34,095 bases of DNA from a virus. The DNA lies in the IMG/VR virus record IMGVR_UViG_3300010042_000017, positions 1 to 34,095 of that record. The stretch is one strand, 5' to 3'. Positions 4,525 through 33,654 of this stretch are shown here, piece by piece (position 1 is the stretch's first letter; each line of letters opens with the position of its first letter). The position numbers and the translations under genes were made by a program. The notes beneath the pieces are model-generated. The model did not search any database and had not been told where the DNA came from. It saw nothing but the letters and a program-made list of their open reading frames with translations.

Positions 4525-5174
4525 TTGCCCGACTCCCTGAGAGCGGTTACAACCTCGTCCATTAGATCGGCTGGTATTTGATAACCCGGCAAACCCTTAT
4601 CGATGTAAATAGATGTCAAGTCGCCTAGACGTTCCGACAGCGTTGGCGGTTTGGGGAGCATGTCGTTAAGTTTCTCAATCGTTGGGGTTCCTTCAAACCA
4701 GCCACCTTTTAGAAACTCATCGCGAATATGCCGCACGGTCCGTTCGTCTGGTACGAATGGCCCTTCGGGGGCAGGAAACCATGTGGGCATGGCACGCGGG
4801 CGGTAACCGATAATGTCGGCAGGGTCTCCCCCGTAAGGGCGATACCAAATTGACTGACCGGAATACCGCGTGCCATCACGTAACAGCACGTACCCACCAT
4901 CCCAATCAGTCGGCGCAGCATCACCACCCGGCCAATATTTAAAACCGGCGGACGTTGCTGCGTAATACGGATGGTCGGTGGGCAGATAGATAAATTCGAT
5001 ACAAGCCCATTCCTTCGATGAAAATTTTACAGACTGGGGAATAAGTCGGTTAGCAGGGGACACCAGCCATCCGTCCGTAAACCCCTCGGTCCGACTCCAG
5101 TCAAACGCCTGGTCCGTGGCCAGCCACTCCGGCCGCTTACCGTCAACGCGTATCGCTTCGCCAAATTCAACCAT
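4521..5174 (-). CDS. hypothetical protein, first gene of a minus-strand cassette
   Basis: The gene encodes 217 residues. The ATG at 5174 has AGAGGGAG about eight bases upstream on the minus strand. The protein is rich in Trp, Tyr, Gly and Pro through residues 10-150, followed by a helical acidic tail. No catalytic motif, signal peptide or membrane segment is visible. It opens the 4016-5174 cassette, which points against the surrounding late genes and is fronted by the dyad at 5217-5232. This is the usual look of a moron inserted between structural genes. I do not recognise the family. Confidence 0.7.
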   Translation of the reverse strand: MVEFGEAIRVDGKRPEWLATDQAFDWSRTEGFTDGWLVSPANRLIPQSVKFSSKEWACIEFIYLPTDHPYYAATSAGFKYWPGGDAAPTDWDGGYVLLRDGTRYSGQSIWYRPYGGDPADIIGYRPRAMPTWFPAPEGPFVPDERTVRHIRDEFLKGGWFEGTPTIEKLNDMLPKPPTLSERLGDLTSIYIDKGLPGYQIPADLMDEVVTALRESGK

Positions 5175-5216
5175 GTGATTCGCTCCCTCTAATTACGACC
5201 CGCACCCTATCGCCCC

Positions 5217-5232
5217 TTGACGTAACCGTCAA
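5217..5232. promoter_or_regulatory. TTGAC-N6-GTCAA dyad between divergent genes (copy 1)
   Basis: The dyad is perfect, with a 6-bp spacer. It lies between the minus-strand gene starting at 5174 and the + strand gene starting at 5279. On the minus strand the TTGACG half can act as a -35 with GATAGG 15 bases further. On the + strand TTGCGC starts at 5242, exactly 25 bases after the dyad start, with a weak TTAC element 22 bases later. The same 25-base spacing occurs at three other copies. Confidence 0.6.
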
Positions 5233-5278
5233 TATAAATTATTGCGCCGTTGCGCAATTTCGCTTACGCCTACCGCCC

Positions 5279-6391
5279 ATGCGCATTAACGTAGCAGATC
5301 GGATGGAAATTAGCGGCACCAGCCGCACGGCTGACGGCTACCTGGTGGCTGACGCTCCGTTCGCTCGGATTGGCATTTATGAATATGCCGGACGCGAAAT
5401 GGGCATGCCCGAAAAAACTACAGTGAAAATTCAGCGCGACGGCGATGTGGTATTCTCCGATGCCTCAATGGCGTCGTTTTCTCATAAACCTATCACGCTC
5501 GGCCACCCCCCGGTAAATGTAAACCGGGACAATTGGTCAAAATTTGCAAAAGGGTACACTGGCGATTGGGTGAAGCAGGACGGCAAAGTTGTTCGCACGC
5601 CTATGATCGTTAAAGCGGGGGATGCGATCGACGCCGTTGAGGCGGGAACGGTTGAACTATCCGCCGGGTATAGTGTCGAGGTGGATATGACCCCCGGCAT
5701 TAACGATGAAGGTGAAGCCTACGATGGCCGCATGGTAGGCGATATTATAGGCAATCATATCGCAATCGTACCGCGCGGACGTGCGGGCAGCATGTGCCGC
5801 ATTGGCGATGCTTGGGATTTTAACGACGACGACAGTAAGGAAACCCCCATGACGACAAAGACCATTACGTTTGACGGGCTGCCCCTGCTCGTCACCGATG
5901 CAGCTGAGGCCGCAATTGCAAAGCGTGACGCACAGTTGCTCGATGCTGCCGCAGCGCTGACCGCCGAGCAGGGCAAAGTTGCCACGCTGACCACCACGAT
6001 CAGCACGAAAGACGCTGAAATCGTGACGATCACCGCCGCTCGTGACGCCGCAGTGGTTACCCCCGCCAAGCTGGCCGAAATGGTCGCTGCACGGGCCGCA
6101 ACGGTTGCTGACGCCAAGGTGCTTGCGCCTTCGCTGACCGTGACCGACGCGATGACCGACGCAGATATTCGCAAGGGTGTCGTGCTGGCAAATGTGGGCG
6201 ATGCGGCCAAGGATTGGACCGACGAACAGTTTGCAGCATCGTTTGCCACGCTCCCCCGCGCGGGCGGTACGGCGATGACCGACGGGATCCGCGCCACTTT
6301 CCTCACACCGTCCGTTGGCTCACATGCCGCATCGGAATCGGCTTGGCAGGATAGCGTCAACGACCTCAATGCCAGCCGTACGGCCAAGTAA
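5279..6391 (+). CDS. DUF2213 head maturation protease / scaffold protein
   Basis: The protein has 370 residues. Residues 1 to about 185 match DUF2213, a herpesvirus-like prohead protease family in phages with DUF1073 portals. Visible landmarks are Ser-His-Lys-Pro-Ile-Thr near residue 69, Glu-Leu-Ser-Ala-Gly-Tyr-Ser near 127, and Gly-Asn-His-Ile-Ala-Ile-Val-Pro-Arg-Gly-Arg near 160, the likely Ser/His catalytic region. After about residue 190 the sequence changes to Ala/Thr-rich helices of the kind seen in scaffolds, with an internal in-frame ATG at 5849. The start ATG lacks a Shine-Dalgarno sequence and follows a candidate short-leader promoter. The capsid genes downstream fit the role. Confidence 0.82.
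   Translation: MRINVADRMEISGTSRTADGYLVADAPFARIGIYEYAGREMGMPEKTTVKIQRDGDVVFSDASMASFSHKPITLGHPPVNVNRDNWSKFAKGYTGDWVKQDGKVVRTPMIVKAGDAIDAVEAGTVELSAGYSVEVDMTPGINDEGEAYDGRMVGDIIGNHIAIVPRGRAGSMCRIGDAWDFNDDDSKETPMTTKTITFDGLPLLVTDAAEAAIAKRDAQLLDAAAALTAEQGKVATLTTTISTKDAEIVTITAARDAAVVTPAKLAEMVAARAATVADAKVLAPSLTVTDAMTDADIRKGVVLANVGDAAKDWTDEQFAASFATLPRAGGTAMTDGIRATFLTPSVGSHAASESAWQDSVNDLNASRTAK
5849..6391 (+). CDS. possible nested scaffold protein from an internal start
   Basis: Within the DUF2213 gene an in-frame ATG at 5849 is preceded by TAAGGAA (5836-5842), a usable Shine-Dalgarno sequence at about six bases. Translation from here would give a 180-residue protein covering only the Ala/Thr-rich helical C-terminal part. 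Lambda (C and Nu3) and related phages make their scaffold this way from the protease gene. The main gene's own start has no Shine-Dalgarno sequence, so the internal site looks better than the annotated one. Expression is inferred; the frame alone cannot prove it. Confidence 0.4.
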   Translation: MTTKTITFDGLPLLVTDAAEAAIAKRDAQLLDAAAALTAEQGKVATLTTTISTKDAEIVTITAARDAAVVTPAKLAEMVAARAATVADAKVLAPSLTVTDAMTDADIRKGVVLANVGDAAKDWTDEQFAASFATLPRAGGTAMTDGIRATFLTPSVGSHAASESAWQDSVNDLNASRTAK

Positions 6392-6403
6392 GGATTAGCG
6401 AAC

Positions 6404-6853
6404 ATGGCACTTCAGACCTCTTATACGCAGTTTCAGATTCAGGGCTTCCCGGGCATGTCAATGGACATGTCGGAGTGGGACGCCTCCACTAAGACTGCCA
6501 CAGCAACGATCGCCTTTGGCGCCCCCGTCCAGCGTGTCGCTGGTGGCGGATGTGCACCACTGACCAGCGGCGAATATATCGGCATCGCGGCCGCACAGCA
6601 CCTCGTAACCGGCAACGGCGATACGTACGTGCAGTACGATAACGTGCCGGTCGTCAATGAAGGCGTGTGGGGCGGCATCGCCAATGCCGCCTTTGCCGAG
6701 GGCATCGCGGTCAATTGGGATAGCGCCACGGGTCGCTGGACCAACGCCTCGGTTGCTGGTGCAATCTATGCCGTCCCCGGTGTCGAGGCTGAAACGGCTT
6801 CAACCGGTATCGGCGCGTTTTTCATTGTGCGGCTCCGCCGCGTGCCCTCGTAA
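6404..6853 (+). CDS. head decoration / structural cement protein
   Basis: The gene encodes 149 residues and its ATG has AAGGA nine bases upstream. The sequence is beta-rich, with Val-Gln-Arg-Val-Ala-Gly-Gly-Gly-Cys and Tyr-Ile-Gly-Ile-Ala-Ala segments. These resemble the cement or decoration proteins that usually lie between the maturation protease and the DUF2184 major capsid gene. It has no signal peptide. It is placed 12 bases upstream of the major capsid gene in the same transcript. The family match is from pattern and position, so the exact class is uncertain. Confidence 0.65.
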   Translation: MALQTSYTQFQIQGFPGMSMDMSEWDASTKTATATIAFGAPVQRVAGGGCAPLTSGEYIGIAAAQHLVTGNGDTYVQYDNVPVVNEGVWGGIANAAFAEGIAVNWDSATGRWTNASVAGAIYAVPGVEAETASTGIGAFFIVRLRRVPS

Positions 6854-6865
6854 GGAGCCACTAAC

Positions 6866-7828
6866 ATGCAGAATTTTCTCGATGCTCCACAGGCTGCGCT
6901 GGCGTACCTGACAAACCAGGCATATTCGATCAATCCGGTCGTTTATAAAACGAAATTCCCCGAATTGGATTTCGGCAAGCTGGTCTATGTCGATACGAGC
7001 GCTCCCGAGTGGACGCCCGGTATCGTTACGTTCATTTCGAACGGCGTGGGTAAGGCCGAATGGCAAGCCGGCGGCGCCAAGGATGTGCCAAAGGCCGAAG
7101 TTCAGCGCGATATCTCGACCGTCAAGGCGCACATGGCCGCCATTGGTTACGGGTATAATATCGAGGAATTGGGCCAGTCTCAGTTGCTCGGCATGAACCT
7201 TCCCGCCGATAAGGCAATGGCCGCACGTCGCGCCTATCAGGAGTTCATGTGGAACGTATCCCTTACGGGTGACGCCACCAAGAATTTGCTGGGCCTGGCT
7301 AACTCGGCTGGCGTCACCACGGGCACCGCGCCTGCGGATGGCACCGGTTCGGTTACGACATGGTTTGACGGTTCGGGTAACCAGACCAAGACCAGCGCAC
7401 AGATTGTTCGCGACTTTAACGGCATGCTGACCGGCGTCTGGACCGGTTCGCTTACGGTTGAAATGGCGGATACGGTGCTTTTGCCGTACGATATCATTTC
7501 GTATCTTGGCGCAACGCCAATGTCCGGCACAAACAGCGAAACGATCCTTTCGTTCCTGCTTCGCAATAACATCTATACGGCAACCACGGGCCAGACGCTC
7601 CTGATTGTCGGTGTTCTCGGCCTCAACACAGCCGGTTCGGGTTCCACCCGCCGTGCGGTTGCGTACAAGAACGCTCAGGATGTTGTTAAGCTGCACCTTC
7701 CAATGCCGCACAAATTCCTGCCGGTTTATCAGGATGGCGCTTTTGCATACGAAGTGCCCGGCATCTTCCGGACCGCTGGTGTCGAGGTTATCCGCACTGG
7801 CGCATTCCGCTATCTGGACGGGATTTAA
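6866..7828 (+). CDS. major capsid protein, DUF2184 family
   Basis: The protein has 320 residues and its ATG follows AAGGAG. It resembles DUF2184 major capsid proteins, which have the HK97 fold and assemble the shell. Recognisable stretches are the N-terminal Ala-Leu-Ala-Tyr-Leu-Thr-Asn-Gln with an aromatic Tyr-Ser-Ile-Asn, Gly-Tyr-Gly-Tyr-Asn-Ile-Glu-Glu-Leu near residue 95, Ala-Ala-Arg-Arg-Ala-Tyr-Gln-Glu near 118, and a C-terminal Ala-Gly-Val-Glu-Val-Ile-Arg. The gene follows protease and decoration genes as expected. Smooth codon use and strong ribosome binding suggest high expression. A 303-codon antisense frame here is a shadow. Confidence 0.87.
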   Translation: MQNFLDAPQAALAYLTNQAYSINPVVYKTKFPELDFGKLVYVDTSAPEWTPGIVTFISNGVGKAEWQAGGAKDVPKAEVQRDISTVKAHMAAIGYGYNIEELGQSQLLGMNLPADKAMAARRAYQEFMWNVSLTGDATKNLLGLANSAGVTTGTAPADGTGSVTTWFDGSGNQTKTSAQIVRDFNGMLTGVWTGSLTVEMADTVLLPYDIISYLGATPMSGTNSETILSFLLRNNIYTATTGQTLLIVGVLGLNTAGSGSTRRAVAYKNAQDVVKLHLPMPHKFLPVYQDGAFAYEVPGIFRTAGVEVIRTGAFRYLDGI

Positions 7829-7831
7829 ATC

Positions 7832-8128
7832 ATGGCGAAATATACCCTCACGAACATCAGCAACGGTCCTAAGGTTGTTAACAGCACCCCGCCCGTTACG
7901 CTCCAGGTGGGCGAAACCCGCGCGGATCTGGAAATTAACGACGACGAAGCCTTGTCTCAGGGTGGAACGGGCTGGTTCGACGGTTTCGACGGCACCAAGG
8001 GTCTGTCCGGCTATAACAAGGCCGAACTGACCGACATTGCTTTGCTGGAGGGTGTGGAAATTGCACCCACCGCCAATAAGGCCGAGATTGTCGCCGCCAT
8101 CGAAGCGAAGCGCGCCGAAAATAACTAA
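7832..8128 (+). CDS. small head-region protein with C-terminal HeH/LEM-like helix pair
   Basis: The gene encodes 98 residues and starts three bases after the capsid stop. The first 60 residues are beta-rich. The last 35 residues, with Asn-Lys-Ala-Glu-Leu-Thr-Asp-Ile-Ala and Asn-Lys-Ala-Glu-Ile-Val-Ala-Ala-Ile, form two short helices typical of HeH/LEM or Rho-N-like modules found at the ends of small phage head proteins. The role is unknown; a decoration or connector-associated function is possible from its position. The gene is followed immediately by a strong stem-loop. Confidence 0.6.
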   Translation: MAKYTLTNISNGPKVVNSTPPVTLQVGETRADLEINDDEALSQGGTGWFDGFDGTKGLSGYNKAELTDIALLEGVEIAPTANKAEIVAAIEAKRAENN

Positions 8129-8136
8129 GCATACGT

Positions 8137-8162
8137 ACCGGGGTGCCTCACGGTGCCCCGGT
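8137..8162 (+). terminator. stem-loop after the capsid block
   Basis: ACCGGGGTGCC (8137-8147) pairs with GGTGCCCCGGT (8152-8162) over 11 base pairs, counting two G-U pairs, with a TCAC tetraloop. It lies nine bases after the stop of the preceding gene and before the Shine-Dalgarno sequence of the next. No U-tract follows, so it may be a partial terminator or an RNA-processing or stability element rather than a full terminator. Confidence 0.5.
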
Positions 8163-8184
8163 CACGGGCATAAGGGACCGTAAA

Positions 8185-8616
8185 ATGTCGCTCAGTAATT
8201 CAATGGAAAACTACTTGCTGGGGCTGATTTTTAACGGCACCGCAATTCCCAATCTTGCCGACAATGCGGCATCGTCTCCCCTGACGAGCATTTTCATTGC
8301 GCTACACACGGCTGACCCTGGCGAAACCGGCACACAGGCGACCAGTGAGGCGGCATATACTAGCTACGCCCGCGTGGCCGTTGCGCGCACCACAGGCGGT
8401 TTCCCCGCACCATCTGCCGGCGCCATCAGCCCAGCGGCAAATATCGATTTCCCGGCGGGTACGGGCGGTTCGGGCACGGTGACTCATTTCTCGGCGGGTG
8501 CTGCGGTGTCTGGCGCGAGTGTCATTTATTTCAGCGGGACCGTTACGCCAAACATTGTCACGGGTACCGGGATTATTCCTAGACTCACCCCGGCGACAGT
8601 TTTTTCGCTCGATTAA
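8185..8616 (+). CDS. virion protein of the gp80-like / tail-fiber-like class
   Basis: The gene encodes 143 residues from ATG 8185, chosen because AAGGGA lies eight bases upstream; the longer in-frame start at 8143 would lie inside the stem-loop. The protein shows a familiar pattern in phage virion proteins: a helical start (Ser-Asn-Ser-Met-Glu-Asn-Tyr-Leu-Leu), then Phe-Ile-Ala-Leu-His-Thr-Ala-Asp-Pro-Gly, then Tyr-Ala-Arg-Val, and a glycine-rich beta region. These are variously named tail-fiber-like or gp80-like proteins. It is probably structural; its exact location on the particle is unknown. Confidence 0.6.
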   Translation: MSLSNSMENYLLGLIFNGTAIPNLADNAASSPLTSIFIALHTADPGETGTQATSEAAYTSYARVAVARTTGGFPAPSAGAISPAANIDFPAGTGGSGTVTHFSAGAAVSGASVIYFSGTVTPNIVTGTGIIPRLTPATVFSLD

Positions 8617-8649
8617 TTAGTCTGATATTTCATCGTAGGATGGCCCCAC

Positions 8650-8838
8650 ATGTCCAAACCCAAAATATCAGCAGCCGTAGGCACCTCGGCCAATAGCGTC
8701 GGCAACCCCGCGCTTGGACAACGTATTCAGCAAGCCATGTCCGACGCTGTAACTGCGGCGCATGAGGCCGGGATTACCGATGATGCCGAAGTGCGCGAAT
8801 TGATGCTTGCGGCACGGGAAGCCGTAAAGGCCGAGTAG
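8650..8838 (+). CDS. 62-residue hypothetical protein
   Basis: A short gene with GTAGGATGG upstream of its ATG. The N terminus is polar (Ser-Ala-Ala-Val-Gly-Thr-Ser-Ala), and residues 22-62 form a helical, Ala/Glu-rich segment. No domain is recognised. It ends one base before the GTG start of the next gene, which suggests translational coupling. Position among virion genes suggests a small structural or assembly protein, with no direct evidence. Confidence 0.5.
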   Translation: MSKPKISAAVGTSANSVGNPALGQRIQQAMSDAVTAAHEAGITDDAEVRELMLAAREAVKAE

Positions 8839-8839
8839 C

Positions 8840-9712
8840 GTGAATTACGCGGATCTCGTCAAATTTACCACAACGAAAACCGGCACAGGCTTGACGGGCT
8901 GGACGGGGTTTGTCGCGAACGATCAGGGGCGGTTACCTGCCGCTGGTGGCGTCATTGATGGTTTGCCCTATCCCGTCTTTGTTCAGGATAGCAGCGGGCG
9001 TATCGGCGGCACCGGGGTGTTCTCGGCCAGCGGCACGATAATGGCATTCACGCCTGTTACCGGCTCAATGATCACATTGAGCGGCACGGCTGTTGTGTAC
9101 ATTTCGCCGCTCGCATCCAATCTAAACCCCTGGTATTGGGCGCCCCCGCTCGCCTCGTCCGTTTCGCTGCGGTCTGGCGATGCCACCAACGTAACGCTGA
9201 CCGATGATCCGGATGTTGGCCTGATTGCCGAATTGGCCGCTGGCGCTACGACGGGCTATCGGATGCGCGGTTATGAAATCACCGTCCCAGTATCGGGCGA
9301 TTGGTGGGTGGCAATCCGCCTTCAGGCAAACCTCATTCCGCTCTCAAATGCTGGCGGGGTAGGCATCCAGGCATTCGAATCGGCCACGCTTAAATATTAT
9401 GGCCTGCAACTGCAAAGCATCCTGCAGCTTCAGGCCCGTCGCGGTCAAATTGACGGCTTAACCGGGGCTGGTGCGACAACATTCACCACCACGGCAGGGC
9501 CTACCGCGTTCTTGCGGGTCACCTATAATTCCGCTGCGACGACATACACGCTAGCGTATTCGATCAGCGGAAAAAAATGGGTCAACATAGAGACCAGCCC
9601 AGCGCTCGGGTACATGACGACAAAGGCCGACAAGTGCTTCATCGGGATCATGCAGAACGATAACAGCGTTGCCCAGTCGTTTGTGGTTGATCATTTGAGC
9701 AAGAGCTTCTGA
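8840..9712 (+). CDS. concanavalin/LamG-like virion protein
   Basis: The protein has 290 residues from a GTG start one base after the preceding stop. It is almost wholly beta-strand in pattern. Residues about 100-290 resemble a concanavalin-like lectin fold: Trp-Trp-Val-Ala-Ile-Arg-Leu, Phe-Leu-Arg-Val-Thr-Tyr, Tyr-Ser-Ile-Ser-Gly-Lys-Lys-Trp and a closing Phe-Val-Val-Asp-His. Such domains are common in phage fibers and head decorations that bind glycans. The gene overlaps the next start by one base (TGATG). No enzymatic motif is seen, so glycan binding is an inference from fold. Confidence 0.6.
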   Translation: MNYADLVKFTTTKTGTGLTGWTGFVANDQGRLPAAGGVIDGLPYPVFVQDSSGRIGGTGVFSASGTIMAFTPVTGSMITLSGTAVVYISPLASNLNPWYWAPPLASSVSLRSGDATNVTLTDDPDVGLIAELAAGATTGYRMRGYEITVPVSGDWWVAIRLQANLIPLSNAGGVGIQAFESATLKYYGLQLQSILQLQARRGQIDGLTGAGATTFTTTAGPTAFLRVTYNSAATTYTLAYSISGKKWVNIETSPALGYMTTKADKCFIGIMQNDNSVAQSFVVDHLSKSF

Positions 9713-10107
9713 TGCGCATTGCCCTCATCCGCACAAGTGACCGCACTGTTTGCCAGATTTGCGAGCTTGGAAGCGAGGTTTTTCCCGTTGGCGTTGACGT
9801 CGAATATTTGACCGAAGCTGATTGGGTCGATGAACCGCAAGACGGCGCGATCTGGAACGGCGAACGTCCCGCGCAATTCAGCATGCCGGTGCCGAGCAAA
9901 GTATCCAAGATGCAAATTCGCAACGCGCTTTGGGATTTGGGCGTCATGCCGGGGGTAAAAGCGTATCTTGCGCAGGCAGACGGGCGGACAAATGATGCAT
10001 GGGATTGTGCCGATTACATCAGCTATGACGATCCGCTCATCAACATTGCAGCCCAAGCCCTCAACATCGATAAGGATGCGCTGTTTCTCTTAGCCGCTGC
10101 TAGTTAA
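9712..10107 (+). CDS. hypothetical protein, possible fiber-assembly partner
   Basis: The gene encodes 131 residues with its ATG overlapping the end of the lectin-like gene. The first half is beta-rich with aromatic and acidic residues. The second half contains a helix (Ser-Lys-Met-Gln-Ile-Arg-Asn-Ala-Leu) and Trp-Asp-Cys-Ala-Asp-Tyr. This resembles the C-terminal part of small tail-fiber assembly or tail-appendage proteins in which an alpha-helical segment follows the fiber gene. The resemblance is weak. Direct adjacency to a fiber-like gene supports a partner role. Confidence 0.45.
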   Translation: MRIALIRTSDRTVCQICELGSEVFPVGVDVEYLTEADWVDEPQDGAIWNGERPAQFSMPVPSKVSKMQIRNALWDLGVMPGVKAYLAQADGRTNDAWDCADYISYDDPLINIAAQALNIDKDALFLLAAAS

Positions 10108-11001
10108 ATGCCCGGCTTCAACGGCATTGGCTTCGACCAGATCGGCGGCAGTGTCGTTGCGGGTGCTACGATATCGGCCGCAGTTGGCAGTGCAAGCGGT
10201 GCCAGCACAGTTACAGCCATTGGACGTGCTCTTGCTCCAGCGATCGGTGCGGCAAGCGGCACAAATACCACCACAGCGGTCGGTCGTGCACTCAAACCGG
10301 GCGTAGGCGCCGCCCCAGCCACAGGTGCCGCAACTGCAACCGGTCGGGGCGTACGACCGGGCATTGGTGCGGCACCCGCAACCGGAACGGCCCTGGCCAC
10401 AGGTCGCGCGGTCGCACCGGCAATTGGTGCAGCGAGCGGTACGGGTGATGCGAGCGGGTCCAGTGGTGGGTCAACGGTATCCTCGGCGGTTGGCGCGGCC
10501 AGCGCAACCGGTACGGCAACAGCCACAGCCGCCGGTGTTGCCCCAGCTACAGGTGCCGCCAGCGCAACCGGCACGGCAAGTGCTACAGCGCGAGGCGTTG
10601 CGCCCGGCGTGGGCAGTACGGCCGCCAGTGGTACAGCAACAGCCGCAGCCGCCGGTATCGCCCCGGCGGTCGGTACTGCTGCCGGCACGGGCAACGCAAG
10701 CGGCGTTGCGCCGGGTGTCATAATTTCATCCGCTGTCGGCACGGCCAGTGCGAGCGGTGCAGCAACGGCCACGGGTCGCGCGTATGCGACTGGCGTGGGT
10801 ATCTCCGCAGGGTTTGGCGTTGCGGTCGGTTTTGGGTCGTCGATATTCGCTGCTGTCGGTATTGCGGGCGGTGTCGGCACGGCCTATGCGTTGAGCGGAG
10901 AAGGTTTGCCCGTTCCGCCCCGCCGGACGGCATATAGTGGAGCGCGCGGCGGGCTGGCGGTGTCGGCATCTCGCAATCGTACCGCGTATAGTGTAGGATA
11001 A
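10108..11001 (+). CDS. Gly/Ala/Thr repeat protein of twelve 20-residue units
   Basis: The protein has 297 residues. Residues 25-266 consist of about twelve units of 20 residues (two of them 22) with the consensus Ala/Gly-Val/Ile-Gly-Ala-Ala-Ser-Ala-Thr-Gly-Thr-Ala-Thr-Ala-Thr-Gly-Arg-Gly-Val-Ala-Pro. The regular alternation of small residues suggests a stacked, fibrous or polyglycine-like structure. The last 31 residues break the pattern, are basic, and carry Arg-Thr-Ala-Tyr-Ser twice. It starts directly after the preceding gene's stop and precedes a fiber-adaptor-like gene, so a fiber or appendage protein is likely. I know no named family with this unit. Confidence 0.6.
   Translation: MPGFNGIGFDQIGGSVVAGATISAAVGSASGASTVTAIGRALAPAIGAASGTNTTTAVGRALKPGVGAAPATGAATATGRGVRPGIGAAPATGTALATGRAVAPAIGAASGTGDASGSSGGSTVSSAVGAASATGTATATAAGVAPATGAASATGTASATARGVAPGVGSTAASGTATAAAAGIAPAVGTAAGTGNASGVAPGVIISSAVGTASASGAATATGRAYATGVGISAGFGVAVGFGSSIFAAVGIAGGVGTAYALSGEGLPVPPRRTAYSGARGGLAVSASRNRTAYSVG
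10180..10905 (+). repeat. in-frame repeat array, period about 60 bp
   Basis: The coding repeats of the Gly/Ala protein form a DNA array with a 60-bp period and two 66-bp units. Copies have diverged at codon level. GC-rich periodicity keeps an antisense frame open over most of the array (10104-10880), which is not a gene. Arrays of this kind can change copy number by slippage. Confidence 0.7.
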
Positions 11002-11005
11002 TCAT

Positions 11006-11743
11006 ATGGCTATTACATGGCGCTCCAAAGACCCCGACGAAATTGATACACGGCGCCATGATTTTACGGCGTTTATGGATCCGGGCGAAGGGGTCGTTTC
11101 CTACACCGCGATTGTAATTGCCGGTACGGTGATTATGAACAACCCGCTCCCGAGCGTGGCATTTACCGATACCTATGCCGATTATATGCTTGCGGGCGGT
11201 GTCGATGGCGAAACAGCCGTGTTCGACGTGGCAATTGTCACCGACGCGGGCCGCCGTCTCGATGAAACAATCATCATGGGTGTGGTCAGCACGTACCAGC
11301 CCGTCGGTGTCCCCGGTTACGTGCAGCCCAGCGTTGCGGATTTGATCACGCGTTATCCGTCATTTGCGGCGGTGTCACCTGAGACAATCCAGGCGTATTT
11401 GACCGATGCGGCGCGTGATGTGGACGAGACGTGGACCGAGGGTGATTTTACACGGGCAATTATTGTCCGCGCGTGCGATTTGATGACTGCGCAAGGCATT
11501 GGTGTCAGTGAGGCTGGTGCAGCGCTCGGGTCGGGTCTGGCAAGCGTAAAAAGCGGCACGTTATCGGTCAGTTATAGCAGCGATGCGCAACGTGACGCGG
11601 CGGCCGGTATCAGCATTTATAGCCGTCTATGGGCGGAATTGGTCCAGAAAAACAAGGGCGGCCCGCGCGTCACCGTGCCAATATCGCTCGGATCCGGTTG
11701 CGTATTTCCCGCGCACGACTCGCCTTTGTTCGGTCATTATTAA
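11006..11743 (+). CDS. fusion of a fiber-tail-adaptor-like domain and a DUF4054 head-tail connector
   Basis: The protein has 245 residues and its ATG has AGGAT seven bases upstream. Residues 1 to about 95 match the small Ig-like protein found beside fiber genes: Trp-Arg-Ser-Lys-Asp-Pro-Asp-Glu at the start, a strand ending Tyr-Met-Leu-Ala-Gly-Gly, and Thr-Asp-Ala-Gly-Arg-Arg-Leu-Asp-Glu. Residues about 108-245 match DUF4054, a gp6-like head-tail connector: Thr-Arg-Tyr-Pro-Ser-Phe, Ala-Ala-Arg-Asp-Val-Asp, and Ser-Val-Lys-Ser-Gly-Thr-Leu-Ser-Val. These are usually separate proteins. The gene converges with the next cassette, sharing overlapping stop codons. Confidence 0.7.
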   Translation: MAITWRSKDPDEIDTRRHDFTAFMDPGEGVVSYTAIVIAGTVIMNNPLPSVAFTDTYADYMLAGGVDGETAVFDVAIVTDAGRRLDETIIMGVVSTYQPVGVPGYVQPSVADLITRYPSFAAVSPETIQAYLTDAARDVDETWTEGDFTRAIIVRACDLMTAQGIGVSEAGAALGSGLASVKSGTLSVSYSSDAQRDAAAGISIYSRLWAELVQKNKGGPRVTVPISLGSGCVFPAHDSPLFGHY

Positions 11744-12291
11744 GATATAGTGGCGGTAAATATGGTACGTGGGGTAACGCACCACTCAATGTCGCACACT
11801 TTTGAAAACGTCTCGTCCGTACATACCCGATAAATGGCCCGCGTCATTCCGTATCTGTCAATTTGCCAAGTGAACGGGCCAATTTCGCGCCCCATTGACA
11901 TTTTCATAACGTCAAGCGCGCTTTGTGGCTGGCCGCTTACGACATAATCGCCGGGCACCACGGCGGGCCGCATCCGCTTAATCTGGACGGTAAATTCTTC
12001 AGTTGCGCCGCGATCGTCAGCCTCGGGCTTGCGGAATGATTGAGCGTTGAAGGCGTGTACGCCGGGGTATTCGTTAAATTGCAAATACCAGCCGGGCGTA
12101 CCGTCACATAGCGCATTGCCGGCGGTTACGTTTCGCACACGGCAAATGTCGTTCATTTTTGGACCTTCGCCCGGAAAATATCCGTACCATGTGCCGTCAG
12201 CAATACAAACGGCCAAATCCCCAACGCGCCAATCCTCATTGATCGGTGGGCGCTTTTGCTCAGGTGGCTGGGGACGTTTGAAGGGCCACAT
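11740..12291 (-). CDS. hypothetical protein, last gene of the second minus-strand cassette
   Basis: The gene encodes 183 residues from ATG 12291, chosen because AGGAGA lies nine bases upstream on the minus strand; the in-frame extension to 12402 lies inside the neighbouring gene. The central segment Arg-Val-Gly-Asp-Leu-Ala-Val-Cys-Ile, then a Gly-Pro turn, then Trp-Tyr-Leu-Gln-Phe and Ala-Gln-Ser-Phe-Arg-Lys-Pro resembles a beta-barrel-like module widespread in small accessory phage proteins of unknown function. The N terminus is basic and Pro-rich. Its stop overlaps that of the convergent connector gene by four bases. Confidence 0.65.
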   Translation of the reverse strand: MWPFKRPQPPEQKRPPINEDWRVGDLAVCIADGTWYGYFPGEGPKMNDICRVRNVTAGNALCDGTPGWYLQFNEYPGVHAFNAQSFRKPEADDRGATEEFTVQIKRMRPAVVPGDYVVSGQPQSALDVMKMSMGREIGPFTWQIDRYGMTRAIYRVCTDETFSKVCDIEWCVTPRTIFTATIS

Positions 12292-12292
12292 G

Positions 12293-12640
12293 TTAGGTGT
12301 CTCCTGTACGGGCGCGGGTGATGGCGGCGCGGATGAGGGCGACAACACGAACATCCTCTGCATCGTGAATTCCGTTGATCGTAATTTCAGCGAAGGGGCC
12401 AAAGTGTTTTTCAGCGGCCTCCAGCGCTTCCAGCAATTGCGGTGCGGCGGCGATAAGGCGGGCGTTGGCGTGTATCTCTTTGTCGCCTCGCGCCGAGCGC
12501 CAGTATGTCTGCACGAAGCCGTCCCAGTGGACGATACCGCAATCGTGCTCGTCTGAGAAAACGCCGGGGCGCCCGCTCAATGGATTGCCGGCATCATCGA
12601 TAATGACGCGCCATGGCCCCGGAGTATGCGCCCCGCTCAT
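12293..12640 (-). CDS. small phage protein with Thr-Pro-Gly-Pro-Trp start and Asn-Ala-Arg-Leu-Ile motif
   Basis: The gene encodes 115 residues. The N terminus His-Thr-Pro-Gly-Pro-Trp and the later Ala-Asn-Ala-Arg-Leu-Ile-Ala-Ala-Ala-Pro-Gln-Leu-Leu-Glu-Ala-Leu are a well-known pair of motifs in hypothetical phage proteins of about this length. The family has no established function. Its ATG overlaps the upstream gene's stop (ATGA, 12640-12637), and its own stop is one base from the next start, so the three genes of this cassette are co-translated. Confidence 0.75.
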   Translation of the reverse strand: MSGAHTPGPWRVIIDDAGNPLSGRPGVFSDEHDCGIVHWDGFVQTYWRSARGDKEIHANARLIAAAPQLLEALEAAEKHFGPFAEITINGIHDAEDVRVVALIRAAITRARTGDT

Positions 12641-12894
12641 GATGCTGGGCTCGTGGGGGTGGAGACCTCTTGGTGCACAAGCGCCAAGGTTCGTTCACGG
12701 GCTTCGTCGCGAGACAGCCCACGATTGAGGAACATCACATGAGCTTCAGCATCACGTCGATCACCCCAGTGATGGCAGGGGACGAAGGTTCCATGGTGCG
12801 GGCCACGAAGGATGTAGCCGACTGAAGTCCAGCCTACGTTAAAGTCGCAGGGCTTGGTCTCCCACGGTAAGCTGTCGTCTGGCCTGTTGCCCAT
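12637..12894 (-). CDS. hypothetical protein, first gene of the second minus-strand cassette
   Basis: The gene encodes 85 residues. ATG 12894 is preceded on the minus strand by GGAGATACGAG, a usable Shine-Dalgarno sequence. The middle of the protein is rich in His, Trp and Gly (His-His-Gly-Thr-Phe-Val-Pro-Cys-His-His-Trp), which could bind metal. The second half is a helix with Arg-Asp-Glu-Ala-Arg-Glu-Arg. No family is recognised. A promoter reading from the dyad at 12943-12958 (TTGACG, 14 bases, TATAGA) lies about 40 bases upstream. Confidence 0.65.
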   Translation of the reverse strand: MGNRPDDSLPWETKPCDFNVGWTSVGYILRGPHHGTFVPCHHWGDRRDAEAHVMFLNRGLSRDEARERTLALVHQEVSTPTSPAS

Positions 12895-12942
12895 CTCGTA
12901 TCTCCGTCAGGCTGGGTGCCTGTGCGAATCACTCTATATAAT

Positions 12943-12993
12943 TTGACGCAACCGTCAACCCCTATAATTGCACCCGTGCGTGCGGCATGATAC
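12943..12993. promoter_or_regulatory. TTGAC-N6-GTCAA dyad (copy 2) with divergent promoters
   Basis: The dyad occupies 12943-12958. On the minus strand TTGACG is followed after 14 bases by TATAGA, for the cassette starting at 12894. On the + strand TATAAT (12963-12968) runs into TTGCAC (12968-12973), a -35 candidate starting 25 bases after the dyad, with TGATAC at 12988-12993. TGATAC ends nine bases before the ATG at 13003, which has no Shine-Dalgarno sequence. The layout matches the 5217 and 13500 copies. Confidence 0.6.
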
Positions 12994-13002
12994 ACCCTCG
13001 CC

Positions 13003-13350
13003 ATGACGCTACAATCCATCATATCCGGCGCGCTATTGTCCGCACTGCCCCCGCTTTATCCTGAAGGCGTGTTGATCCGCGTGATTCGCACCGAGCAGCC
13101 TAATGGTGATGTTACAATCGTTACCCAATCACAGGCGGTTAAGGTGCAGCGCGAACCGGCAACGGAACGCATGCGCCAGGCGGCGGGCTATACCGATCGC
13201 GATACGGCTTTGATCGTTTTGCAGACTGGCGGTGTGCAGATAACCACCGATGACCAGATCACGGATGCCGAGGGCACCACATGGGCGGTCGCATCGGCTG
13301 AATACGACGCAGCGTTGTCGCATTGGGTGGTTCACGGTCAACCCGCTTAA
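13003..13350 (+). CDS. putative head closure / neck protein
   Basis: The gene encodes 115 residues. It has a helical start (Ser-Ile-Ile-Ser-Gly-Ala-Leu-Leu-Ser-Ala-Leu), then Gly-Val-Leu-Ile-Arg-Val-Ile-Arg, and a beta-rich second half with Val-Gln-Ile-Thr-Thr-Asp-Asp-Gln and Trp-Ala-Val-Ala-Ser-Ala. This layout is like the stopper proteins that follow DUF4054 connectors. It resumes the + strand head-to-tail gene order after the minus-strand cassette. The assignment rests mostly on order and length. Its ATG has no Shine-Dalgarno sequence but sits just behind a promoter-like TGATAC. Confidence 0.5.
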   Translation: MTLQSIISGALLSALPPLYPEGVLIRVIRTEQPNGDVTIVTQSQAVKVQREPATERMRQAAGYTDRDTALIVLQTGGVQITTDDQITDAEGTTWAVASAEYDAALSHWVVHGQPA

Positions 13351-13361
13351 TTTGCCCCGTT

Positions 13362-13428
13362 GTTAGACTTTTGGGTGGGTACTTAATCCGCCGATCCCGG
13401 GCCACCTTTGATACTTCCGCAGTCTAAC
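13362..13428. other. structured 67-base element in a 230-base non-coding gap
   Basis: GTTAGAC (13362-13368) and GTCTAAC (13422-13428) form a perfect 7-bp closing stem. Inside it, GGTGGGT (13374-13380) pairs with ATCCGCC (13386-13392) over seven pairs including two G-U, with loop ACTTA. The gap 13351-13580 holds no convincing gene. The element is not a tRNA: it has no T-loop motif and the arm lengths do not fit. It could be a small RNA, a processing signal or a weak terminator. Confidence 0.4.
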
Positions 13429-13499
13429 CATTATCAACAGTCGTGGGGCCGCCGTCTGCTTATGAATCCCAGGGCGGTGTGAAACGATGCTGCGCGCGG

Positions 13500-13553
13500 T
13501 TGACGGTATTGTCAATCTATATAATTGCCGCCCGCCTCGCACGGTGCTATACC
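13500..13553 (+). promoter_or_regulatory. TTGAC-N6-GTCAA dyad (copy 3) and promoter for the gene at 13581
   Basis: The dyad is at 13500-13515, followed by TATAAT at 13520-13525 running into TTGCCG (13525-13530), which starts 25 bases after the dyad. TATACC lies at 13548-13553, 17 bases after TTGCCG, an ideal -35/-10 spacing. The downstream gene starts at 13581 with a clear Shine-Dalgarno sequence. No minus-strand gene lies to the left, so this copy serves only the + strand. Confidence 0.6.
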
Positions 13554-13580
13554 GTCCGCAACTTTACACGGAGCAAAATC

Positions 13581-14090
13581 ATGGCGGGCGTAACAGCGGA
13601 TATTGGCTTGAACATTTCGGCCAGTCTGGTCGGCACTGGTGACCTCGGTAATCCCCGCCTGCAAATCGCCCCTGTGCGCGAGGCATTGCAGCTTTTACCA
13701 GGCACGCTCACGGTCGGTCAGGCTGACATTATGTTTGCCGATACGCGCACGCTGGCCGCTTCCGCAACGGAAAATCTGGACCTTACCGGCACGCTGATCA
13801 ACGCCTTTGGCGCCACGATCAACGCTGCTGAAATTGTCATGATTTACATCAAGGCGGCAAAGGCCAACGTCAACAGCATCATCGTCGGCAACGTCGCAAA
13901 CGGCTTCGTCGGTCCGCTTGGCGCGACTGGTCAATATACGATCAAGCCGGGTGAATATTATCTGGCGGTCAGCGCGAGCGGCTGGGGCGTCACTGCTGCC
14001 ACCGCCGATCTGCTCAAAATCCTCAACGGTGGCGCGGGTACGGCGGTTTCGTACGATGTGGTTATCATTGGCCGTACGGTCGCTGCGTAA
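13581..14090 (+). CDS. virion structural protein, possibly decoration or tail-associated
   Basis: The gene encodes 169 residues from ATG 13581, chosen for CGGAG nine bases upstream; the in-frame extension to 13443 would cross the promoter region. The protein is beta-rich and strongly ordered: Gly-Asn-Pro-Arg-Leu-Gln-Ile-Ala-Pro-Val, Glu-Ile-Val-Met-Ile-Tyr-Ile-Lys-Ala, Gly-Pro-Leu-Gly-Ala-Thr-Gly, Gly-Glu-Tyr-Tyr-Leu-Ala-Val-Ser-Ala. Proteins like it lie between connector and tail completion genes in other alphaproteobacterial phages. It has its own strong promoter, which suggests abundant expression. The exact role is unknown. Confidence 0.6.
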   Translation: MAGVTADIGLNISASLVGTGDLGNPRLQIAPVREALQLLPGTLTVGQADIMFADTRTLAASATENLDLTGTLINAFGATINAAEIVMIYIKAAKANVNSIIVGNVANGFVGPLGATGQYTIKPGEYYLAVSASGWGVTAATADLLKILNGGAGTAVSYDVVIIGRTVAA

Positions 14091-14263
14091 TGGCTCGGTG
14101 GCGCTTCACGAAAGACTATGATCACAAGTGGCCGTCGCGGGCCGTATCGGCGTATAAAGCCGGTTTTGTGGGCGTGCTCAAACGTGAAGTGCTGCTAGGC
14201 GCTCAAGCGCGCAACGCTGTTGAATCGGTGGATCCGCCAGAGTCCGATAATGGCGGCGAATGA
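14090..14263 (+). CDS. 57-residue conserved small phage protein
   Basis: The frame starts at ATG 14090, overlapping the previous stop as TAATG, and stops at 14261-14263. The protein begins Met-Ala-Arg-Trp-Arg-Phe-Thr-Lys-Asp-Tyr-Asp, continues with Ala-Val-Ser-Ala-Tyr-Lys-Ala-Gly, and ends in an acidic tail. Small proteins with this same opening are common in the head-tail region of alphaproteobacterial phages. Their function is unknown. It overlaps the next gene by 14 bases. The family resemblance plus coupling at both ends makes it convincing. Confidence 0.72.
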   Translation: MARWRFTKDYDHKWPSRAVSAYKAGFVGVLKREVLLGAQARNAVESVDPPESDNGGE

Positions 14264-14666
14264 TCCGACCCTATACGTCCGGCAAGCAATCGTTACCCGG
14301 CTTAAAATCGATGTGTCGGCCGTTGCGAGCCGGGTTTATGGTCGATCGCCACCAGCGGCACCCGTCTGGCCGTTTATCCGCGTGGCGGTTGACGACGTGG
14401 AACCGTTCACGGCGCAATGCCTGCGGGGCGCAACGGTCAATCTAACAGTCCATACATTCGCCAAAGGTGACGAGGATAACGCCGTAGCGTTGCTCAATCG
14501 GACCGTTGCTGATGCGCTATCGAGCAAACCGCTGGTGTTGACCGACTCGCCTATTCCGGCTGAGTTACGGCGCATGCAATGGTTGCGGTCGCAAATTATT
14601 CGTGATACCGACGAGGCCACAGGATGGCACGGTATCGTTTCATTCCAAGGAACCGTTAGCAGTTAG
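14250..14666 (+). CDS. tail completion protein, DUF3168-like
   Basis: The gene encodes 138 residues from ATG 14250; a TTG start at 14220 is possible but would lengthen the overlap. Matching features of the DUF3168 tail terminator family are Val-Arg-Gln-Ala-Ile-Val near the start, Val-Tyr-Gly-Arg-Ser-Pro-Pro-Ala-Ala-Pro-Val-Trp-Pro-Phe-Ile-Arg, and Val-Asn-Leu-Thr-Val-His-Thr-Phe. In the family the protein caps the tail tube and joins it to the head. The gene precedes the tail tube gene as expected. Confidence 0.8.
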   Translation: MAANDPTLYVRQAIVTRLKIDVSAVASRVYGRSPPAAPVWPFIRVAVDDVEPFTAQCLRGATVNLTVHTFAKGDEDNAVALLNRTVADALSSKPLVLTDSPIPAELRRMQWLRSQIIRDTDEATGWHGIVSFQGTVSS

Positions 14667-14677
14667 GGAGCCACACC

Positions 14678-15121
14678 ATGGCCGTACCGAGTGTCATTGA
14701 AGGCCGTTTTGTCGTTATCTCCGCTGGTGACGGCGCCGGTCCCGAAGTTTTCACGCCGCTTTGCGGTTTGTTCGTTACCGCTTTCAATCGCACCGTTAAC
14801 AGCCAGGACCGCGCGCTGCGCGACTGCACCAATCCGACCGAGATTCCTTGGCGCGTAACGATCGTCAATTCCAAGCAATTCGATATCACGCTTGGCGGTG
14901 TTTATAATCTGGACAACCGCGCCACGATCGATGCGCTTTGGGGCGAAAAGGTCAATTATCGCCTGACCATTTTCGAAGACGACGGCATTACGGACGTTGG
15001 ATATTGGGAAGGCAACTTCACGGCCACAGCGGTCAATAGCGGCGCACCCGAAACGGATCTGACTTCGCTTGAAATTACGCTGGCTTCAAACGGCCCCGTA
15101 TTGTGGGTTGACGCTACCTGA
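14678..15121 (+). CDS. major tail tube protein
   Basis: The protein has 147 residues with AGGGAG about nine bases before the ATG. It resembles TP901-1-like tail tube proteins: a beta-strand start with Phe-Val-Val-Ile-Ser-Ala, Arg-Ala-Leu-Arg-Asp-Cys, Gln-Phe-Asp-Ile-Thr-Leu-Gly-Gly-Val-Tyr, and Leu-Thr-Ser-Leu-Glu-Ile-Thr-Leu-Ala-Ser-Asn-Gly. In the family it polymerises into the tube around the tape measure. It follows the tail completion gene and is followed directly by a strong stem-loop. Placement and pattern together give good support. Confidence 0.8.
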   Translation: MAVPSVIEGRFVVISAGDGAGPEVFTPLCGLFVTAFNRTVNSQDRALRDCTNPTEIPWRVTIVNSKQFDITLGGVYNLDNRATIDALWGEKVNYRLTIFEDDGITDVGYWEGNFTATAVNSGAPETDLTSLEITLASNGPVLWVDAT

Positions 15122-15130
15122 CGCTCGGTA

Positions 15131-15165
15131 ACGGACCGCTTTGCTGGAAGTGCTTGGCGGTCCGT
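15131..15165. terminator. terminator-like stem-loop between convergent genes
   Basis: ACGGACCGC (15131-15139) and GCGGTCCGT (15157-15165) form a perfect 9-bp stem with a 17-base loop, followed on the + strand by the AT-rich ATTAATATTAT. It lies between the stop of the tail tube gene and the end of the convergent gene at 15173, so it could serve both strands. There is no run of U, so strength is uncertain. Confidence 0.6.
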
Positions 15166-15172
15166 ATTAATA

Positions 15173-15379
15173 TTATGCAGCGCCCTCCATGCAGATTGCC
15201 TCGAATTGCGCGAGTCGAACGGCTTCCATAATTTTTTCGAAATTTTCCGCCGTCTGGTGAGTGGTCCGACCCCGCCGACGTGGGCCGCTTTCCACTCGCT
15301 CCAGCAAATCCGCGCACATACGCTTGATTTCGTTTGTGGCTACGACGCGGCGCTCCACTGGGTCCATATGAGCGTTCAT
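15173..15379 (-). CDS. 68-residue helical protein, lone gene of the third minus-strand cassette
   Basis: The ATG at 15379 is preceded on the minus strand by GAGGGG about ten bases away; an in-frame second ATG lies four codons in. The protein is helical and charged (Glu-Ile-Lys-Arg-Met-Cys-Ala-Asp-Leu-Leu-Glu-Arg, Asn-Phe-Glu-Lys-Ile-Met-Glu-Ala-Val-Arg). A basic stretch, Pro-Arg-Arg-Arg-Gly-Arg, lies in the middle and might bind nucleic acid. No family is recognised. Like the other two cassettes it points against the late genes and has a TTGAC dyad upstream. Confidence 0.6.
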   Translation of the reverse strand: MNAHMDPVERRVVATNEIKRMCADLLERVESGPRRRGRTTHQTAENFEKIMEAVRLAQFEAICMEGAA

Positions 15380-15448
15380 AATGAAAGGCCCCCTCAGGCC
15401 GTTCGGACATTGGCGGAATGCCGTCCGATAACCAACACATACGAGCGT

Positions 15449-15502
15449 TTGACCGCCCCGTCAACCCCCTAATTTGACAATACCGTCAATGCGCCCCATA
15501 CC
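15449..15502. promoter_or_regulatory. tandem TTGAC-N6-GTCAA dyads (copies 4 and 5) with divergent promoters
   Basis: Two perfect dyads lie at 15449-15464 and 15474-15489, exactly 25 bases apart. The second also acts as a -35 on the + strand: TTGACA (15474-15479), 17 bases, then CATACC (15497-15502), six bases before the ATG at 15509. That ATG has no Shine-Dalgarno sequence, so the transcript may be leaderless. On the minus strand the first dyad gives TTGACG with CGTATG 15 bases on, toward the gene at 15379. Confidence 0.6.
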
Positions 15503-15508
15503 GCCTGC

Positions 15509-15970
15509 ATGCAGACACATTTACCGCTGCCGTTCGCGGACGGCACTTATCAATTTCGCCTCACTCTCCCCGGTATTGCCGAGGTGCAACGTAAAACCGG
15601 CGTGGCGTTTGGCCTTATGCTGCCGCTGCTCACACAGGGCGTTTACGTTGATCAGGATGGCAATATTGCGCAAGGCGACCCGACCGCGACCGGCGCTTGG
15701 ACGCCTGAACTGGTTTATGAAGTGCTGCGCCAGGGTCTCATAGGCGGCAAGTCGGGCCTTGTAGATGGCGAGCCGGTCGAGGTAACGGCGCTGGTGGCAA
15801 ATGCGCTTATCGAGGCATATGTGCTTCCCACGCCCATCTATGCCCACTGGATAACGGCGGTCAATGTTGTCCGGGCGTTCATGGTGGGCTTTGTCCCCCC
15901 GGTCCCTCAACCGGCGGCGGCCGAGGAAAAACGCAAACCTCGGAAACGCTCAACTACGCCGCGTACCTAA
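15509..15970 (+). CDS. tail assembly chaperone, gene-transfer-agent type (TAC_11-like)
   Basis: The protein has 153 residues. Residues 5-35 (Leu-Pro-Phe-Ala-Asp-Gly-Thr-Tyr then Arg-Leu-Thr-Leu-Pro-Gly-Ile-Ala-Glu-Val-Gln-Arg-Lys-Thr-Gly) match the chaperone family found in gene transfer agents, which protects the tape measure during tail assembly. The C terminus turns Pro/Ala-rich and then basic, as in upstream halves of frameshifted chaperone pairs. A run of five A at 15927-15931 within codons GAG GAA AAA CGC could allow a -1 shift into the following 58-codon frame. The gene lies between tail tube and tape measure as expected. Confidence 0.82.
   Translation: MQTHLPLPFADGTYQFRLTLPGIAEVQRKTGVAFGLMLPLLTQGVYVDQDGNIAQGDPTATGAWTPELVYEVLRQGLIGGKSGLVDGEPVEVTALVANALIEAYVLPTPIYAHWITAVNVVRAFMVGFVPPVPQPAAAEEKRKPRKRSTTPRT
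15926..15932 (+). other. possible -1 frameshift site in the tail chaperone gene
   Basis: The zero-frame codons are GAG GAA AAA CGC. AAA preceded by A allows the lysine tRNA to slip back one base. The -1 frame is open from here through 16158 and joins the next small reading frame. The heptamer is not the classical G-GGA-AAN of lambda, so the site is plausible rather than certain. Confidence 0.35.
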
Positions 15971-29707: not shown

Positions 29708-29796
29708 GATATCACCTAAATAGATGATATCTTTTACGAGTGCAATAGGTGATATCAACAAAATGGCAGGCTTGGCAGAAAAAACGATATCACCTA
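29708..29796. promoter_or_regulatory. four-copy operator (TAGGTGATATC) around the RHH gene start
   Basis: TAGGTGATATC or its complement occurs at 29708-29718 (reverse), 29721-29731 (forward, one mismatch), 29746-29756 (forward) and 29786-29796 (reverse). The first two form a near-perfect 24-bp palindrome. The last lies inside codons 8-12 of the RHH gene. The cluster covers the divergent promoter area, so binding would block both the RHH gene and the gene at 29688. Confidence 0.7.
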
Positions 29797-33644: not shown

Positions 33645-33654
33645 CGAACCCCTG

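Follow-up and report, generated by a model that had tools for sequence, protein, structure and literature searches.

Candidate operators of a short phage TetR-family regulator that include the -35 hexamer of early-type promoters

Introduction

The late activators Ogr of phage P2, which is of zinc-finger type, and delta of P4 recognize a TGT-N12-ACA site near -55. In phage lambda, the operators of CI and Cro overlap promoter elements, occur as tandem sites about 24 bp apart and lie at divergent promoters. Here, a 16-bp dyad, TTGAC-N6-GTCAA, is described from a linear virus record of 34,095 bases (IMGVR_UViG_3300010042_000017, analysed over its full length and termed the window) and from related phages. 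These dyads are probably operators of a phage-encoded, self-repressing short protein of the TetR family (phrog_8723), referred to below as mini-TetR. Like the Ogr and delta sites, the window dyads keep a constant position ahead of late promoters; unlike at those sites, the dyad overlaps the -35 element in the relatives. Promoter overlap, tandem sites and divergent promoters are shared with CI and Cro, but mini-TetR differs from the lambda proteins in its predicted TetR fold and in having many single-gene operators spread over the genome.

TetR-family repressors of solved structure, such as KstR, SaFadR, and PA2196 on operator DNA, resemble mini-TetR in helix-turn-helix (HTH) profile and fold, in the palindromic operator and in the location of the regulator gene near its own operator. 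Mini-TetR is unlike the solved TetR repressors in being mostly 81-114 amino acids (aa) long, phage-borne and provided with several operators per genome. TetR regulators are annotated as putative, downstream of the helicase gene, in Klebsiella phage JD001, Vibrio phage CP-T1, Shewanella phage SppYZU01 and Acinetobacter phage Scuro, and the same palindromes are present in these four genomes. The accessible part of Comeau et al. 2012 (PMC3391216) treats the tetR-like genes of phiPLPE, CP-T1 and 138, ties such regulators to osmotic stress and suggests that they are co-opted bacterial genes; its main text is without the terms promoter, operator, palindrom- and motif. The accessible parts of the literature searched, which comprised open-licence PMC papers (PMC3391216 and PMC7012835 among them), gave no account of this operator. 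Judged from these sources, TetR-like genes in such phages are already in print and the TTGAC-N6-GTCAA operator and its regulon are apparently new.

Results

Occurrence and geometry of the palindrome

Exact copies of TTGAC-N6-GTCAA were found at six window positions (5217, 12943, 13500, 15449, 15474 and 31035) against 0.04 expected in an order-3 Markov sequence. When up to two mismatches were allowed, 25 dyads were counted in the window against 11.5 in shuffles. A first-pass annotation of the same DNA had listed four + strand dyads, at 5217, 12943, 13500 and 15449. All four are exact and correctly placed, and the exact dyads at 15474 (noted there as a second dyad at the TTG of 15449) and 31035 are additional to them. 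Three of the four sites (5217, 12943, 15449) are divergent regions with a minus-strand gene on the other side; at 13500, no minus-strand open reading frame (ORF) start (at least 55 aa) was found within 170 nt.

A search with the DNA polymerase (polA) led to two records, G417 and G418, of about 60% identity and with 5 and 3 exact dyads, respectively. A third record, G004, came from a scan for tandem dyads spaced by 25 bp and likewise has 3 exact copies; its capsid genes are distantly related to those of the window, and its replication genes to those of G417 and G418. In the stretches taken from the polA-related GenBank phages TPWB-08 and Stenotrophomonas B2, a single relaxed dyad was counted per phage. 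Helicase alignment of G417, G418 and G004 gave the best 80 of 164 loci (L078-L157, 1.40 Mb in total), in which these three records and near-duplicates are included. In the 80 loci, TGAC-N6-GTCA ranked first of 3,328 half-site/gap patterns, with 246 occurrences against 22.2 expected (z 47), and the reversed, non-complemented control pattern was counted 14 times. At least one TGAC-N6-GTCA is present in 66 of the 80 loci and the full TTGAC-N6-GTCAA in 35.

To describe the surroundings of the dyads, 475 oriented dyad sides were kept, with repeats and sides near a locus end left out. An ORF start with a Shine-Dalgarno (SD)-like word was found 28-100 nt downstream of 155 sides (gene-ward sides), no ORF start at 214, and a start without SD at the rest. 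Start codons peak 55-69 nt from the dyad (74 of the 155). Among 91 gene-ward sides that have TTGAC first and a start at 40-75, and that were chosen by the start and not by the -10, the most pronounced column apart from the palindrome is A at offset 24 (0.84), with T at 23 (0.65) and at 28 (0.63). On the gene-ward sides a TANNNT -10 thus lies exactly 17 bp from the TTGACN hexamer, and the -35 is the dyad's own TTGAC.

Of 82 downstream proteins listed, 67 were scanned, the TetR genes among the 82 having been removed by hand. The commonest family, phrog_11133 (function unknown), was found in 22 of the 67; the other matches include helicase, topoisomerase, methyltransferases, a single-stranded DNA-binding protein and an endonuclease. 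The 25 families shown comprise two endolysin families and no structural family. The dyads are thus followed by early-type genes.

A short TetR-like protein encoded beside the helicase

G417, G418 and G004 share a small HTH protein encoded between helicase and primase, which matches phrog_8723 (function unknown) with E values of 1e-11 to 5e-21. A phrog_8723-like protein was found in all three of these dyad-bearing records and in none of 10 capsid relatives without a seen dyad. Single mini-TetR sequences score just below the Pfam TetR_N cut-off (22.0-23.7 against 24); with an iterated profile a TetR-like short ORF was detected in 71 of the 80 loci, and a 41-member profile (A2) reached TetR-family chains of the PDB at 1.3e-11. 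The model of a 113-aa member (predicted local distance difference test score, pLDDT, 89.3; predicted template modelling score, pTM, 0.80) consists of one HTH domain plus few helices. When it was compared with TetR-family chains by a second aligner, Z was up to 10.6, the value for 3pas, which was superposed with a root-mean-square deviation of 2.9 over 94 residues. By profile and model, an N-terminal TetR HTH domain is present. A full C-terminal ligand-binding/dimerisation domain was not recognized, and the size is too short for the usual one, most A2 members being 81-114 aa long against 173-215 aa for solved TetR chains. Because the members are short and without the full C-terminal domain, the protein is referred to as a short TetR-like regulator and not as a full-length TetR. 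A TetR-like subset of about 160-169 aa (L101, L109, L112 and others; L158, L161) appears to carry two HTH-like stretches.

TGAC-N6-GTCA lies within 100 bp upstream of the TetR start in 26 of the 71 loci, against a mean of 1.07 and a maximum of 5 in 200 random draws. The runner-up pattern, found 12 times, is this palindrome again, shifted inward by one base. In many of these upstream dyads TTGAC is followed after 17 bp by a -10 such as TAGTAT, TAATAT or CATACT. In G417 (11781) and G418 (36000) the helicase gene runs into a dyad with its 3' end, and the operator would there be partly coding.

A tblastn search of GenBank phages with one mini-TetR sequence gave nothing at 0.01, despite annotated TetR genes in syntenic places. 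Two other window proteins were considered as the regulator and set aside: the ORF at 29724, ribbon-helix-helix-like in appearance, was modelled alone with a pLDDT of 67, which lent no support, and had no Pfam or PDB match, and in place of the OmpR-like winged-helix gene at 4016-4483 the dyad-bearing relatives share the TetR gene.

The palindrome in named phages

Five phages, JD001, Edwardsiella MSW-3, CP-T1, Scuro and SppYZU01, were hand-picked from 40 listed among 1,752 helicase-matching records. Their fetched stretches contain 10, 7, 5, 5 and 2 copies of TGAC-N6-GTCA, respectively, and the control pattern is seen once in Scuro and not in the other four. The TetR-like gene of MSW-3, listed as hypothetical, was recognized by place and sequence. 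An annotated start lies 48-68 nt from a first T at 16 of the 29 dyads (random 2.6%); of the 13 remaining dyads, 7 are intragenic by the annotation and lack a start at that distance. One dyad in each of JD001, MSW-3 and CP-T1 stands between an inverted block, with its start at 55, 58 and 60, and a + gene that starts at 17-18 nt. This is the layout of window position 5217 with another + spacing.

Promoter elements and genes beside the window dyads

The + strand of the window carries the portal, DUF2213, major head and tail tube genes, and the minus strand the DNA polymerase. The features beside the dyads are collected in Table 1.

Table 1. Dyads, promoter elements and adjoining genes of the window (distances of ATG codons are from the first T of the dyad).
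Feature	Positions	Strand	Remarks
m4521, inverted accessory gene	4521..5174	-	ATG +58, strong SD (energy -7.7); homologs in G417, G418, L005
-10 TAGGGT for m4521	5204..5209	-	17 bp from dyad TTGACG; top 2.5% of random positions, regulon -10 model
Operator dyad (candidate) TTGACGTAACCGTCAA	5217..5232		between m4521 (-) and DUF2213 gene (+); exact match
AATTATTGC block	5237..5245	+	TATTGC 17 bp from TTGACG, candidate -10; TTG of the first-pass annotation begins at 5242
Variant palindrome TTGCG-N6-CGCAA	5242..5257		geometry as dyad, 25 bp from 5217; by eye; terminator-like stem also flagged
DUF2213 capsid-region gene	5279..6391	+	Pfam DUF2213 6.7e-48; ATG +62, no SD (energy +1.9)
m12637, inverted accessory gene	12637..12894	-	ATG +64, SD present
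-10 TAGAGT for m12637	12931..12936	-	16 bp from TTGACG; top 1% of random positions
Operator dyad (candidate) TTGACGCAACCGTCAA	12943..12958		between m12637 (-) and g13003 (+); exact match
TATAATTGC block	12963..12971	+	TAATTG 16 bp from TTGACG
g13003, late-region gene	13003..13350	+	ATG +60, no SD; homologs in late regions of L009 and L010
Operator dyad (candidate) TTGACGGTATTGTCAA	13500..13515		exact match
TATAATTGC block	13520..13528	+	
Alternative -10 TATACC	13548..13553	+	17 bp from TTGCCG (13525)
g13581 (phrog_22694)	13581..14090	+	SD-led, ATG +81
m15173, inverted accessory gene	15173..15379	-	ATG +85, SD
Weak -10 TATGTG for m15173	15436..15441	-	17 bp from TTGACG
Operator dyad (candidate) TTGACCGCCCCGTCAA	15449..15464		exact match
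Second operator dyad (candidate) TTGACAATACCGTCAA	15474..15489		exact match
Tail tube protein gene	15509..15970	+	phrog_8985 2.8e-10; ATG +60 from 15449, +35 from 15474; no SD
m30805, small protein	30805..30996	-	SD-led, ATG +54 from 31035
Operator dyad (candidate) TTGACGGTCCCGTCAA	31035..31050		overlaps polA end, upstream of m30805 (-); exact match

The starts at +54, +58, +60, +60, +62 and +64 are inside the +50-70 range of the regulon. An SD is present at 13581 and at the four minus genes and absent at 5279, 13003 and 15509. On the regulon -10 model (core median 3.6, random 95th percentile 3.2) the best scores among the window dyads were obtained on the minus sides of 5217 and 12943, the others being weak. 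The dyad at 15474 fits the clade geometry directly, with TTGACA 17 bp from CATACC (15497-15502) and 6 nt between the latter and the ATG at 15509, but the score of CATACC as a -10 is ordinary. In G417 the m4521 homolog is likewise preceded by a dyad with a -10, TAGGGC, 17 bp on (TAGGGT in the window), and in G418 a relaxed dyad at 33647 is just upstream of the homolog. The genes m4521 and m12637 clearly use the regulon promoter type, and m15173 and m30805 do so more weakly. The window is a probable member of the mini-TetR regulon by its sequence.

It is possible, though doubtful, that the window dyads serve the minus-strand accessory genes only, the + strand similarities being incidental or the product of duplication of one cassette. 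The high -10 scores and strong SDs at 5217 and 12943 on the minus side are in line with this, as are the association of m4521 with a dyad in the window, G417 and G418, and the minus starts kept at 55-60 in JD001, MSW-3 and CP-T1, where the + starts are at 17-18. The dyad at 13500 argues otherwise: it has the TATAATTGC block, which occurs as an exact copy only there (13520) and at 12963 in the window, yet it lacks a minus-strand ORF start in the range searched.

The TTG at 25 bp

In the first-pass annotation, the TTG seen at a distance of exactly 25 bp (first T to first T) from each of the four + strand dyads was read as a -35 element, and the fixed distance as that between a regulator and the polymerase. 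The elements it described are present. The TTG is found at all four sites, and that of 15449 is the second exact dyad at 15474; the bridging blocks are TATAATTGC at 12963 and 13520 and AATTATTGC at 5237; and TTAC or ATAC follows 22, 22, 24 and 24 bases past the TTG (5264, 12990, 13549 and 15498). As to their meaning, sequence comparison strongly supports the dyad as the binding site of a regulator, and the reading of the TTG as a -35 at a set distance lacks such support. In the relatives the -35 is within the dyad and the -10 at offset 23-28, where the TTG falls. TTG at +25 was seen on 5 of the 155 gene-ward sides (SD-led start) and on 0 of the 214 sides without an ORF, so it shows no enrichment among relatives. 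In JD001, MSW-3 and CP-T1 the + start codons stand 17-18 nt from the first T, whereas the window has 60-62; dyad-bearing relatives with varying spacing, as seen here on the + side, are what the first-pass annotation had named as refuting its reading. A fixed polymerase-contact distance is therefore unsupported.

Both the TTG, at offset 25-27, and the TATAATTGC block, at offset 20-28, coincide with the -10 zone of the clade, 22-28 nt from the first T, and three of the four window + ATGs (+60, +60 and +62) are inside the clade start peak. Most simply, the constant 25 bp would be the ordinary distance from -35 (the dyad) to -10 (the TATAATTGC block) of one promoter. Both + strand promoters, the one in the dyad and the one based on the TTG, may be present.

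A separate promoter, with the TTG as -35 and ATAC as -10, contacted by a dyad-bound regulator and giving leaderless late mRNAs at 5279, 13003 and 15509, is unlikely. It is suggested by the shared TTG column, which arose at a frequency of 1e-4 when the 44-mers downstream of the four dyads were rotated at random 20,000 times (any shared trinucleotide column, 0.0015 of the same rotations; the column was picked after the fact, on four sites), and by ATAC or TTAC 22-24 further on. The three genes without SD also fit, as does the SD of 13581, where the -10 is further away, and at 15474 the TTG belongs to a further dyad, which has CATACC at N17. Against it, besides the scarcity of TTG at +25 in the relatives, the -10 scores are ordinary, being reached by 25%, 13%, 6% and 23% of random positions, and an ATAC at the same spacing is produced at 1358 and 16171 by the TGA of the preceding gene.

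Pattern scans for the arrangement elsewhere gave little. A dyad-N4-TATAATTG pattern had no match. The full promoter layout of the first-pass annotation had 6 matches, each a single dyad in its whole record and judged to be chance. Tandem dyads at 25 bp were found in three contigs, of which two share one terminator-like element and the third is G004. A cooperative pair at exactly 25 bp is not the rule either, as the close pairs of the relatives stand at 25, 27, 28, 30, 41, 44, 45 and 57, the 25-bp pair being that of one phage, G004, counted twice via two loci.

Other observations in the window and loci

The C-terminal 125 residues of the portal protein (1358-3130) match phrog_755 ('RNA ligase', 6.3e-17), and two HxT motifs seen by eye suggest a 2H phosphoesterase-like domain fused to the portal. 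An inverted block within the head operon contains, at 4016-4483 on the minus strand, the gene of an orphan winged-helix protein of OmpR type (Trans_reg_C 5.7e-09), which also has a CxxC pair. At 416-867, a 66-aa protein has a LysR-type HTH stretch (HTH_1 5.3e-05, under the cut-off), and the adjoining zinc-ribbon protein is 74% identical to one in G417. A Gly/Ala-rich protein gene at 10108-11001 is made of repeats with a 60-bp period. Upstream of g13581, at 13360-13430, an inverted repeat that encloses a long loop, GTTAGACT...AGTCTAAC, was seen by eye between the genes; Rfam gave no match, this repeat included. Among the other loci, L037 (653-712) and L038 (169-228) carry TTGACC-N4-GGTCAA as three consecutive units close to strong stem-loops.

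Discussion

The 16-bp palindrome TTGAC-N6-GTCAA includes the -35 hexamer, with the -10 17 bp downstream. A mini-TetR dimer on the dyad would exclude RNA polymerase from the early, replication and accessory promoters and from the promoter of the regulator itself. Repression would be the natural effect because the operator covers a near-consensus -35, and with an operator at its own gene the regulator would limit itself. The expected outcome is a self-limiting early shut-off, in which a protein without a sensor domain could act as a concentration timer that closes the early genes. In the window, late + genes would share the operator with inverted accessory genes on the other side. The window's own TetR gene should be beyond its right edge, because in the syntenic record G417 polA is followed by helicase, TetR and primase.

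Several results weigh against this model. The 80 loci are related and have near-duplicates among them, and the counts are not independent. Exact dyads are absent from the 100 bp upstream of TetR in 45 of the 71 TetR loci, 12 of the 71 lack any TGAC-N6-GTCA, and 7 of the 9 loci without a TetR match contain dyads, several of these loci being cut off shortly past the helicase. In Stenotrophomonas phage B2 a TetR gene is annotated, yet 36 kb contain a single dyad. No TetR match was found in the 34-kb window record. Foldseek alone gave no match at E 0.001 or below, although the rows listed are TetR-type. At the window promoters, the + strand -10 hexamers TATTGC, TAATTG, TAATTG and AATTTG are fair to poor, with scores of 3.0, 2.4, 2.4 and -0.3; the minus side of 15449, the + side of 15474 and the minus side of 31035 are poor on the -10 model; and three window + genes have no SD.

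A speculative and quite unlikely extension is that mini-TetR acts as a two-way switch. The bound dyad would then shut the early inverted gene and turn on the late structural + gene from the promoter at constant 25 bp, and at 15449/15474, where another operator lies across the late -35, high concentrations of the protein would shut off the late promoter once more. If this were true, one short sensorless phage protein would time both halves of the programme.

That another protein binds the dyad, either a host regulator or a phage HTH protein, is very unlikely. A phage candidate is offered by G004, where the dyad at 26580 precedes an XRE-like gene; however, TetR is what G417, G418 and G004 have in common, and it is found in 71 of the 80 loci. 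As to the host, the closest capsid relative of the window is a prophage of Sphingomonas oleivorans (76% major capsid identity), whose 3.9-Mb genome has just 2 dyads and no enrichment; this is the host of the capsid relative and may not be that of the phage itself. The dyad plus TATAATTG (at most one mismatch) was found in 0 of 397 genomes of the S. oleivorans family. The dyad family was not seen in the scanned capsid/DUF2213 relative loci, one match in L018 being judged coding by eye. Thus, in the loci and genomes scanned, the dyads neither travel with the capsid genes nor look like a host regulon. Chance or terminator-like palindromes have virtually no likelihood: similar TTGACC dyads do occur in a run of stem-like repeats in the unrelated contigs L037 and L038, but the idea is already contradicted by the clade-wide counts, the six window dyads against 0.04 expected and the fixed -10 and start geometry.

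Operators of a short TetR-like protein, the reading preferred here, would give phrog_8723, listed as unknown, a specific target site and a probable function, in a family that spans phages of Klebsiella, Vibrio, Edwardsiella, Shewanella and Acinetobacter and many uncultured ones. A testable regulon would take the place of a loose guess about osmotic stress. For annotation, the palindrome with a -10 at 17 bp would mark early promoters in the clade. The arrangement would be a phage regulon of single-gene promoters in which the operator is the -35, carried with inverted accessory genes into the structural operon.

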